Positions 26,453 through 29,566 of a DNA stretch of 64,000 nt are shown piece after piece. The stretch comes from Candidatus Altimarinota bacterium. GTDB taxonomy: Bacteria > Patescibacteriota > Gracilibacteria > UBA4473. The stretch lies in contig JAHDHX010000001.1 of NCBI GenBank assembly GCA_020631075.1, positions 62,001 to 126,000 on the forward strand, in the 5' to 3' direction. Every line of letters starts with the position of its first letter. Position 1 is the first letter of the stretch. Made by a program: the position numbers and the translations under genes. The notes under the pieces were generated by a model. The model was not told the DNA's origin. It ran no database searches and saw nothing but the letters and a program-made list of their open reading frames with translations.

Positions 26453-29400
26453 ATGATGGAGAAGGCGTATGAACACGGACGGTTTGAAGATGGGTTGTAT
26501 GCTCGCTGGGAGGCGAGTGGGAAAATGCGGGCGAATGCGCAGAGCGAGAAGCCGCCGTTTGTGATCCCTCTGCCGCCACCCAACGTGACGGGGCAGCTGC
26601 ACCTGGGCCATGCGGCGATGCTGGCGATAGAGGACATCTTGATACGGTTTAAGGCGATGACGGGCCACGAGGTGCTGTGGTTGCCCGGGACTGACCATGC
26701 CGCCATAGCCACGGAAAACGTGGTGCGAAAAAAGCTGGGTCTGCAGAAGCGGGACGAGATGCCGAAAGAGGAATTTATGCGGGAGGCGCGGAAGTTTGCC
26801 GCGGGGAGCCACGACACGATCGTCAACCAGATGAAAAAGATGGGGGCGTGGCTGGACTGGTCGCGGGAGTCGTACACGTTTGATGCGGATCGGAACTTTG
26901 CGGTGAATGCGGTGTTTCGCCAGCTGTATGATGATGGGCTAATAGAGCGGGGGTACCGTATGATCAACTGGTCGGTGGATGCGCAGTCGGTGATAGCGGA
27001 TGATGAAGTGGAGTGGGAGGAACGGACGGAGACGTTGTATCACATCCAATGTGGGGAGTTTGTGATCTCGACCGTGCGGCCAGAGACCAAATGTGCGGAC
27101 TCGGCCATGGTGGTCAACCCCGAAGACCCGCGGTATAAACACTTGATCGGGCAAAAATTTACGGCGATGACCTATGCGGGGGAGCGGGAATTTCACGTGA
27201 TCGGGGATGAGCACATTGACCCTGAGTTTGGGTCGGGGGCGATGACGATCTCGACCGCGCATGATGCCAATGACTACGCGATCGCGAAGCGGCATGATTT
27301 GCCGTTTGTGACGAAAATCGGGTTCGATGGGCGGATGACCGACGTGGCGGGGCCCTGCGCGGGGATGACCGTGATGGCGGCGCGAGAGAAGTCAGTCGCG
27401 GTGATGCGGGAGATGGGGTTGATCGTGAAAGAAGAGACGTATCCTCATAATGTGCCGTTGTGCTATCGCACGGGGTGTGTGATAGAGCCGATGTTGTCAG
27501 ATCAATGGTTTGTGGTGGTGGAAAAACCATTCACTGACCGACACACGGGTGAAACGACCACGCTGAAGCAACTGACGGCGGATGCGGTACGGGGGGGGGA
27601 GGTGCGAATCATCCCTGAGCGGTTTGAGAAGACGTATTTCTCGTGGATTGATAACCTGCTGGACTGGTGCATAAGCCGACAGATCTGGTGGGGGCACTCT
27701 ATACCGATCTGGTATGACGCACAGGGCGGGGTGCACCATGGGGTGGCGAAAGAAATCTGTCTGGTGCGACACGGTGAGAGCGAAGACAATGCGGCCAACC
27801 GCGTGCAGCGGGACGACACACCCTTGACCGCTGCGGGTCGAGCCCAGGCTGAAGCACTGGCGGAGGAGCTGGCGCAGAAAAATATAACCAAGCTAGTAAC
27901 GAGCCCGCTGCGCCGTGCGGTGGAGACGGCTGAGATCGTCAGTGCGAAGCTGGGGCTGGAGTACACGGTGGTGGACGATTGGGCGACCATTGACCTGGGG
28001 GGGCTGAAAGGGGAGGCGCGGACGGAAGACTTGTCGGCGCTGTTTTACGCTGAGGAGCGCACGGAGGGGGAGACGGTGGAGTCGTTTCGCCAGCGGATAG
28101 CGGGGGCGTATGCGGTGCTAAAACAGACGGCCACGGCGGGGAACATAGCGGTGATCGCGCATCGATCAGTGGCGACTATGGTGCAGTTGATCCGCCGTGA
28201 TAGGCCCAACAGTGACATGAAAGCGGTGGCGCGTGACCATGGATTTGGGGCGTATGGTGATGTGCTGGAGCTGGGGGTGATCCAGTCGCCGCAGCTGTAC
28301 ACCGAGGAGCCGCTGCGGGCGGAGGAAGATACGCTGGATACTTGGTTTAGCTCCGCCCTGTGGCCCGTGAGTCCGCTGGGGTGGCCGCAGGGGGGGGAGG
28401 ATTTTGCGAAATTTTACCCAGCGGATGTGCTGGAAACGGGGCATGATATTTTGTTTTTTTGGGTGGCGCGGATGATCATGTTTGGGCGGTACCTGACGGG
28501 GGAGTACCCCTTTCACACGGTGTATCTGCACGGACTGGTGTGTGACGCGAAGGGCAAAAAAATGTCGAAGTCGAAAGGCAACGGGATCGATCCATTAGAA
28601 ATGATAGCGCAGTATGGGGCGGACGCGGTGCGCCTGTCACTGGTGGTGGGGTCGACCCCAGGGAATAATATTCCCATTGGGCCAGAGAAAATTGGTGGGT
28701 ACCGAAACTTTGTCAATAAGCTCTGGAATGCGGTGCGGTTTGTGCAGATGAAAACCGAGGGAGTAGCGATGACGGCGGCGACGCTGCAGCCAGAGAGCCT
28801 GGCGGAGCGGTGGGTGGGGAGCCGCTTCACGGTGGCGCAGGAGCGCGTGCGGACGGCGTTGCAGGGGTATGAGATCTCACGCGCGGGGGATACGATTTAT
28901 CACTTTGTGTGGGACGAATATTGTGCGTGGTTTCTGGAGTCGGCGAAGGCGGGGGTGCGGCCTGTGTATCTGCTGGGGCTGATGGGGGAGGTGCTGAAGC
29001 TGGTGCACCCATTGTGTCCGTTCATAACCGAAACGTGCTGGGGGGAACTGTACGGCGAGGCGTGTTTGCTGGAGATGGATTTCCCGAAATTGACGTTGAA
29101 GGATGAAGTGGCGGAGGCGGAATTTGCGCTGGTGCAAGGACTGGTGACTGCGGTGCGGCAGGTGCGGGCTAACCTTGGGGTGGGGCCACGGGAGAAACTG
29201 GAGACGTATCTGTCTGGTGTAAACTGCAGTGGGGAGATGGCTACGCTGGCGGAGGTGCTGGGGGGGCTGGGGCAGCTGACGGTGGTGGAGACACTGCCAG
29301 AGCTGGACCACGGGGTGCGGGTGGAACTCGACCACGGGGGGACGCTGCTGATAGATGTGCCGTATGACGCGGACGCGGAGCGGGAGCGACTGGACAAAGA

Positions 29401-29566
29401 GCTGGCCCAGCTGGACAAGCAGCGTGGGGGGCTGGAAGGGCGGCTGGCCAACCCGAAGTACACGGAAAAGGCTCCGCCAGCGCTGGTCCAGCAAACCCGT
29501 GACCAGCTGACGGCGGTGAATGAAAAAATCACAAAAGTGCGGGCGCAGCGAGCGGAACTGGGGTGA
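26453..29566 (+). CDS. valS: Valyl-tRNA synthetase with internal histidine-phosphatase domain
   Basis: Charges tRNA-Val. Class I motifs are present: PNVTGQLHLGHA (HIGH), KKMSKSKGNGIDPLEM (KMSKS), the editing domain, and a C-terminal coiled-coil arm. Of 1037 residues, about 187 (roughly 434-620) are foreign. Between WCISRQIWWGHSIPIWYDAQ and EDTLDTWFSSALWP, where other ValRS have a short linker or zinc knuckle, lies a phosphoglycerate-mutase-like domain. It shows LVRHGESEDN (Arg439, His440), DTPLTAAGRAQAEALA, SPLRRAVETAE (Arg488) and VIAHRSV (His570). The usual catalytic Glu of the E-x-x-FG-x-WEG motif aligns with Thr512 (ATIDLGGLKG), so activity may be altered. The frame is continuous, so this is not two adjacent genes. 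ATG 26453/26456 fits the family start better than GTG 26408. Confidence 0.93.
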   Translation: MMEKAYEHGRFEDGLYARWEASGKMRANAQSEKPPFVIPLPPPNVTGQLHLGHAAMLAIEDILIRFKAMTGHEVLWLPGTDHAAIATENVVRKKLGLQKRDEMPKEEFMREARKFAAGSHDTIVNQMKKMGAWLDWSRESYTFDADRNFAVNAVFRQLYDDGLIERGYRMINWSVDAQSVIADDEVEWEERTETLYHIQCGEFVISTVRPETKCADSAMVVNPEDPRYKHLIGQKFTAMTYAGEREFHVIGDEHIDPEFGSGAMTISTAHDANDYAIAKRHDLPFVTKIGFDGRMTDVAGPCAGMTVMAAREKSVAVMREMGLIVKEETYPHNVPLCYRTGCVIEPMLSDQWFVVVEKPFTDRHTGETTTLKQLTADAVRGGEVRIIPERFEKTYFSWIDNLLDWCISRQIWWGHSIPIWYDAQGGVHHGVAKEICLVRHGESEDNAANRVQRDDTPLTAAGRAQAEALAEELAQKNITKLVTSPLRRAVETAEIVSAKLGLEYTVVDDWATIDLGGLKGEARTEDLSALFYAEERTEGETVESFRQRIAGAYAVLKQTATAGNIAVIAHRSVATMVQLIRRDRPNSDMKAVARDHGFGAYGDVLELGVIQSPQLYTEEPLRAEEDTLDTWFSSALWPVSPLGWPQGGEDFAKFYPADVLETGHDILFFWVARMIMFGRYLTGEYPFHTVYLHGLVCDAKGKKMSKSKGNGIDPLEMIAQYGADAVRLSLVVGSTPGNNIPIGPEKIGGYRNFVNKLWNAVRFVQMKTEGVAMTAATLQPESLAERWVGSRFTVAQERVRTALQGYEISRAGDTIYHFVWDEYCAWFLESAKAGVRPVYLLGLMGEVLKLVHPLCPFITETCWGELYGEACLLEMDFPKLTLKDEVAEAEFALVQGLVTAVRQVRANLGVGPREKLETYLSGVNCSGEMATLAEVLGGLGQLTVVETLPELDHGVRVELDHGGTLLIDVPYDADAERERLDKELAQLDKQRGGLEGRLANPKYTEKAPPALVQQTRDQLTAVNEKITKVRAQRAELG

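Follow-up and report, generated by a model that had tools for sequence, protein, structure and literature searches.

Why the valyl-tRNA synthetase (ValRS) of a Candidatus Altimarinota bacterium should carry a histidine phosphatase (HP) domain in the midst of its catalytic region is the question raised by valS, a gene found in a 64,000-nucleotide stretch of contig JAHDHX010000001.1 (hereafter, the window). The fusion itself, proposed in an earlier note made from the nucleotide sequence, is confirmed. The valS frame is open over all 1,037 amino acids, with no stop, and Pfam places PF00300 His_Phos_1 at residues 435-577 (106 bits, E 2.5e-30; cut-off 21.7), flanked on both sides by tRNA-synt_1; the anticodon-binding domain and then the C-terminal arm of ValRS (PF10458) follow. 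Alignment with T. thermophilus ValRS (1gax) stops at residue 423 of the query and restarts at residue 621, with only some 27 residues of 1gax (417-445) corresponding to the insert. The HP domain hence stands in place of a short linker between the WWGHSIPIWY and LDTWFSSALWP motifs, the position that the earlier note had given. The host protein is recognized as ValRS by NCBIfam (PRK05729, 898.9 bits, cut-off 704; TIGR00422, 810 bits, cut-off 612) and presents the features expected of the bacterial enzyme, namely, the equivalog profile, the HLGH and KMSKS motifs and the C-terminal arm. An intein was considered and rejected, as no Hint/intein family appeared in Pfam or NCBIfam scans of the protein.

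Structure modelling yielded a confident HP fold both inside ValRS and alone. In the AlphaFold model of the whole protein, the HP region presents pLDDT values of mostly 89-96 (overall pLDDT 78, pTM 0.64) and ValRS 1gax is the top Foldseek match, while the isolated domain was modelled with a pLDDT of 90 and a pTM of 0.88. When the isolated model served as query, the best Foldseek matches were PSP1, GpgP (glucosyl-3-phosphoglycerate phosphatase), PhoE and CobC (E ~1e-12, TM 0.74-0.83), and a profile built from 33 inserts of this kind ranked PhoE, CobC and PSP1 top among solved structures. PhoE (1ebb, 1h2e), PSP1 (4ij5), CobC (6nru) and GpgP (4pz9) share their fold and catalytic motif with the window domain, yet all four are free-standing phosphatases, whereas the window domain is inserted and offers a threonine in place of the acid glutamate. 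Family models were considered as a guide to the substrate, but no NCBIfam HP equivalog reached its cut-off for the inserts.

The residues of the window domain were next compared with those of other inserts in a census of 77 copies scoring over 60 bits in a hidden Markov model (HMM) search. As the earlier note had read, the RHG motif (R439, H440 and G441), R488 and H570 are kept, while Thr512 replaces the acid Glu. The domain thus presents the profile, the fold, both Arg residues and both His residues of the superfamily, with neither Glu nor Asp as general acid, and it is a member of the histidine phosphatase superfamily by descent and fold, although not classed here as an active phosphatase. 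The complete RH..R..E/D..H set was found in 68 of the 77 inserts, comprising all 55 from isoleucyl-tRNA synthetase (IleRS) and 13 of the 22 from ValRS (Fisher p 3e-6). All nine incomplete copies, the window copy among them, are therefore from ValRS; the acid is absent from the window copy and seven other ValRS copies, and three ValRS copies of genus g11 present neither the acid nor the second His. The earlier suggestion that the window copy might be a working phosphatase is possible but unsupported: it is without the acid, while all 55 IleRS copies are intact. Nor was evidence found for a protein regulator or a misactivated intermediate as its substrate. The domain is nonetheless under constraint. 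In genus g11, dN/dS of the ValRS HP is 0.04-0.08, as compared to 0.05-0.07 for the synthetase core, these ratios being rough since dS is 1.2-2.5 in the g11 pairs and saturated in most others. The inserts are under strong purifying selection, even in copies that have lost catalytic residues. Because the g11 copies devoid of acid and second His still show low dN/dS, the fold is kept there for something besides full catalysis.

Table 1. Features of the valS frame and of its inserted HP domain (window positions)
Feature	Coordinates	Strand	Remarks
valS (ValRS gene containing the HP insert)	26453..29566	+	1037 aa; no second ValRS in the genome
ValRS N-terminal part: Rossmann half, CP1 editing domain, through WWGHSIPIWYD	26453..27739	+	
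HLGH motif, Rossmann half of ValRS	26600-26611	+	
WWGHSIPIWYD motif, end of N-terminal ValRS part	27686-27718	+	
Inserted histidine-phosphatase (branch 1) domain	27740..28291	+	~residues 430-613; Pfam, AlphaFold, Foldseek
Arg439-His440, RHG nucleophile motif	27767..27772	+	invariant in 77/77 inserts
Arg488, second phosphate-binding Arg	27914..27916	+	present in 77/77 inserts
Thr512 in general-acid position	27986..27988	+	Glu or Asp there in 69/77 inserts
His570, second catalytic His	28160..28162	+	73/77 inserts
ValRS C-terminal part: LDTWFSSALWP, KMSKS, anticodon-binding domain, Val_tRNA-synt_C arm	28292..29563	+	
KMSKS motif of ValRS	28559-28573	+	

The insert is not a peculiarity of this gene. 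A search of relatives' genomes, as the earlier note had advised, revealed the same insert at the same site in many independent assemblies, with HP-containing ValRS in 16 of the 20 genomes of the window's family and HP at one IleRS site (slot D, below) in 19 of the 20. The insertion site is common to 17 ValRS sequences of the class (the window and 16 further loci), across which the junction sequence is conserved. The source genome is a draft of 50 contigs, a state in which assembly or binning might join two genes; however, with an open frame and an identical, conserved junction recurring in so many independent assemblies, such an artefact has next to no probability, and the assembly join that the earlier note had raised as a concern is not borne out by the 16 further loci. 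Among 117 sampled class genomes, a sample partly overlapping with the genomes behind those loci, the 19 positive for HP-ValRS are confined to the window's family and family f15. Dozens of HP domains were located in frames of 650-1800 aa across 40 relatives, and the hosts fetched from these relatives were all IleRS or ValRS, save one UvrB. Of 145 genomes sampled from the phylum, at least 15 outside the class contain HP-IleRS and two contain HP-ValRS. Among 34 genomes of named records (32 non-Patescibacteria by title), no frame above 636 aa contained an HP; the nearest named ValRS, from Ca. Peregrinibacteria (L074, where L numbers denote loci), is without the insert, and the scan otherwise returned mostly ordinary ValRS of other phyla, yielding no public accession of an HP-containing ValRS. 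Together with the reading of TGA as a sense codon in some class members, this nearest match suggests a Gracilibacteria/Peregrinibacteria-like class.

The picture within the source genome is similar. Here, PF00300 is found at four places: in ValRS, twice in a single 1395-aa IleRS and in one free phosphoglycerate-mutase-like gene. The trait that the earlier note had described for ValRS is thus present there but not peculiar to it, since IleRS has two inserts and HP-bearing synthetases occur across the phylum. A genome-wide search disclosed no second ValRS, and two further class I synthetase frames of 838 and 504 aa, suggested by size and position to be the leucyl- and methionyl-tRNA synthetases (LeuRS and MetRS), are without HP.

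To define the insertion sites, HP was removed and the remainder aligned with the E. coli enzymes, which served as a numbering ruler. In E. coli numbering, ValRS accepts its insert at residues 449-463. IleRS offers at least four slots, across this class and others of the phylum, and in the window's relatives one to three of the following four hold HP: slot A at 488-497, after WGxPxxxW and equivalent to the ValRS site; slot B at 519; slot C at 548-551; and slot D at 669-675, between KMSKS and the anticodon domain. The IleRS of the source genome (G000:C22; L025:1546-5697, + strand) has its HP inserts in slots C and D, both with complete catalytic residues. Tandem HPs are present in the ValRS of L032, L036 and L039, and a single IleRS (L034) contains three. 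Other enzyme domains occupy these proteins as well: slot C holds a GNAT domain in L056, L057 and L063 and a serine hydrolase in L060, and a NUDIX domain is found at IleRS residue 230 in L045, L072 and L073. The Nudix box, the GNAT motif and the GHSxG-type nucleophile are preserved in these inserts. Serine hydrolase inserts were also found in LeuRS (three genomes), in UvrC and, together with HP, in UvrB.

TGA is a sense codon in some class members, and two of these TGA-recoding organisms (L072 and L073, code 25) present an IleRS in which NUDIX is joined by two HPs: the slot-A copy is enlarged, and that of slot D resembles SixA, with TIGR00249 below its cut-off. The 1788-aa IleRS of L057 (2101-7464, + strand) combines GNAT, HP and two MuF-C-like stretches, while in that of L066 (104-3541, + strand) the second zinc knuckle contains a nuclease-like DUF559 domain, with flanks (PPSPPCQGEE...SPPDKGDLGG) that resemble translated palindromic repeats and recall peptides in the ValRS of L071 and L068. 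In genome G026, UvrB with HP and serine hydrolase (L043:3061-6435, + strand) and UvrC with serine hydrolase (L222:2365-4899, + strand) are both in frame. The serine hydrolase PF06821 adjoins the LeuRS editing domain in two class families (L220:2059-5232, - strand; L221:1908-4892, - strand; L223:924-5255, + strand). The L223 LeuRS also contains three copies of an unnamed ~125-aa domain, one of which splits the hydrolase; the only two other matches to this domain in 41 genomes are both in a 1094-aa frame of G005. Reading of sequences uncovered further HP fusions, with a 2-hydroxyacid-dehydrogenase-like protein (L173, L174 and L177) and with a pyruvate-kinase-like part (L175).

The origin of the inserts was addressed in a tree of these domains and 48 stand-alone HPs. 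The 20 HPs from the 17 ValRS of the class form one clade (SH-aLRT 99), as do the 19 slot-D HPs of the window's family (support 98), while slot-C inserts cluster with stand-alone HP genes (support 99). That the tree shows many independent origins was considered and rejected: the slot groups cluster, yet approximately unbiased (AU) tests reject neither a single clade of all ValRS inserts (p 0.49) nor one of all IleRS slot-D inserts (p 0.24). Separate insertion events are accordingly backed by the differing slots and not proved by the tree, and the ValRS HP of the two class families is most simply explained by one insertion in their common ancestor. Three stand-alone HP genes related to the slot-C inserts belong to ileS operons of genus g11, where ileS is followed in turn by glyoxalase-like, tRNA_edit deacylase (PF04073), HP and threonine dehydratase genes (e.g., L048:5961-8669, + strand). 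At most of 11 loci of the family, a relative of the deacylase comes either right after ileS or one gene further on. This kinship of gene and insert, together with the neighboring editing enzyme and isoleucine-pathway enzyme, suggests that HP is tied functionally to isoleucine charging.

An essential translation enzyme seems, then, to have acquired an extra activity or a support domain. The reading that we favor, at a probability of roughly 45%, is that the insert derives from a phosphatase and is maintained as an accessory module, likely catalytic in IleRS and, to judge by its residues, a phosphate-binding pseudophosphatase in the window ValRS. In such a scheme, the inserts would be accessory catalytic modules of the broad PhoE/PSP1/CobC-like type, dephosphorylating a small molecule or nucleotide that arises or is encountered during isoleucine and valine charging, with IleRS supplying the active copies. 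The window domain would probably persist as a phosphate-binding pseudophosphatase or a very slow phosphatase, in which His440, Arg439, Arg488 and His570 could still hold phosphate while the proton donor is missing, and would serve ValRS as a binding or structural element. Several points weigh against this. Unrelated enzyme domains share slots with HP, which a single specific phosphatase role would not predict, and many Patescibacteria in the phylum and class samples have no HP in IleRS or ValRS. In several pairs of species, moreover, HP evolves faster than the core (identity 39-62% vs. 66-89%), and the 60-bit threshold of the census favors well-kept copies.

Were catalysis irrelevant, a ready-made HP globule might simply have replaced a zinc-finger or CP2-type linker, stabilizing the synthetase or touching tRNA via its phosphate-binding Arg residues. 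The 27-residue linker whose place HP takes in ValRS, the selection that continues where both acid and second His are absent and the other unrelated folds in the same loops all agree with this structural or tRNA-binding role, which is possible if, on balance, doubtful: a scaffold would not need the full catalytic set kept in 55 of 55 IleRS inserts, and the motifs of the NUDIX, GNAT and serine hydrolase (GxSxG) inserts are kept as well. The variety of inserted enzymes in IleRS, LeuRS, UvrB and UvrC, the tandem HP copies within one slot and the nuclease-like domain with repeat-like flanks could also reflect hitch-hiking, whereby the class Ia synthetases and further essential genes of these organisms accept small enzyme genes in frame that persist, with no role in translation, because deleting them from an essential gene is risky. 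Yet HP is nearly restricted to the paralogous IleRS and ValRS, the class having yielded just one further long-frame host, a UvrB, and its low dN/dS, intact active sites and long retention (slot D in 19 of 20 family genomes) render such passive carriage unlikely.

Two further proposals assign the inserts a joint task. In this class of Patescibacteria, the class Ia synthetases that proofread may act as carriers, their fixed slots taking small hydrolases and transferases (HP, NUDIX, GNAT and serine hydrolase) interchangeably to process charging by-products that are phosphorylated or activated, a proposal for which we see about one chance in a handful; if true, IleRS, ValRS and LeuRS would share a modular quality-control layer, of which HP would be the most widespread part. 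Alternatively, the same inserts might act at the poisoned enzyme to clear toxic aminoacyl-nucleotides, whether noncognate adenylates that have been released or antibiotics that mimic them. IleRS, ValRS and LeuRS are proofreading synthetases that form much noncognate adenylate, and in microcin C immunity, GNAT and serine peptidase enzymes detoxify aminoacyl-nucleotides. The choice of hosts, the resemblance of the insert set to those immunity enzymes and the tRNA_edit deacylase gene that follows ileS in many family members would fit. HP enzymes are, however, phosphomonoesterases for which cleavage of an aminoacyl phosphoanhydride is not known, and UvrB and UvrC are ill-suited hosts, such that detoxification appears quite improbable.

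It is established that aminoacyl-tRNA synthetases can acquire domains. In cyanobacteria, the CAAD domain is inserted in ValRS, IleRS, LeuRS, GluRS, ArgRS, MetRS and CysRS (PMC4893482). As with HP, a domain is recurrently recruited internally by class I synthetases of one phylum, ValRS and IleRS are the commonest hosts and the host is the sole copy of the enzyme; unlike CAAD, HP is a soluble enzyme fold, inserted mostly within the catalytic domain, in Patescibacteria. Indeed, the CURT1-like transmembrane (CAAD) family was not among the Pfam matches of the window protein, the insert of which is HP. The MetRS of Mycoplasma penetrans bears an appended aminotransferase of demonstrated activity (PMC7694997) and likewise joins a metabolic enzyme domain to a synthetase in a bacterium of reduced genome, although there the appendage is N-terminal, a different enzyme family and synthetase are involved and the substrate link is known. 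NCBIfam NF040702 (isoleucine--tRNA ligase with N-acetyltransferase domain) describes an IleRS with GNAT, as in L056, L057 and L063, but contains no HP, and its cut-off of 1999 bits was far from reached by the proteins scanned. For HP in IleRS or ValRS, no description was found in a literature search of open-licence PMC papers, in agreement with the earlier note, which knew of no described role.

To our knowledge, then, the repeated insertion of an enzyme fold of phosphate metabolism into the catalytic region of IleRS and ValRS, two synthetases that proofread, has not been described before, and it recurs across numerous lineages of a phylum whose genomes are very small. Because the hosts are single-copy and essential, the role of HP is directly testable by complementation in E. 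coli. That role would bear on the fidelity of charging in Patescibacteria, on the placement of enzymes in reduced genomes or on the uptake of foreign domains by essential genes.
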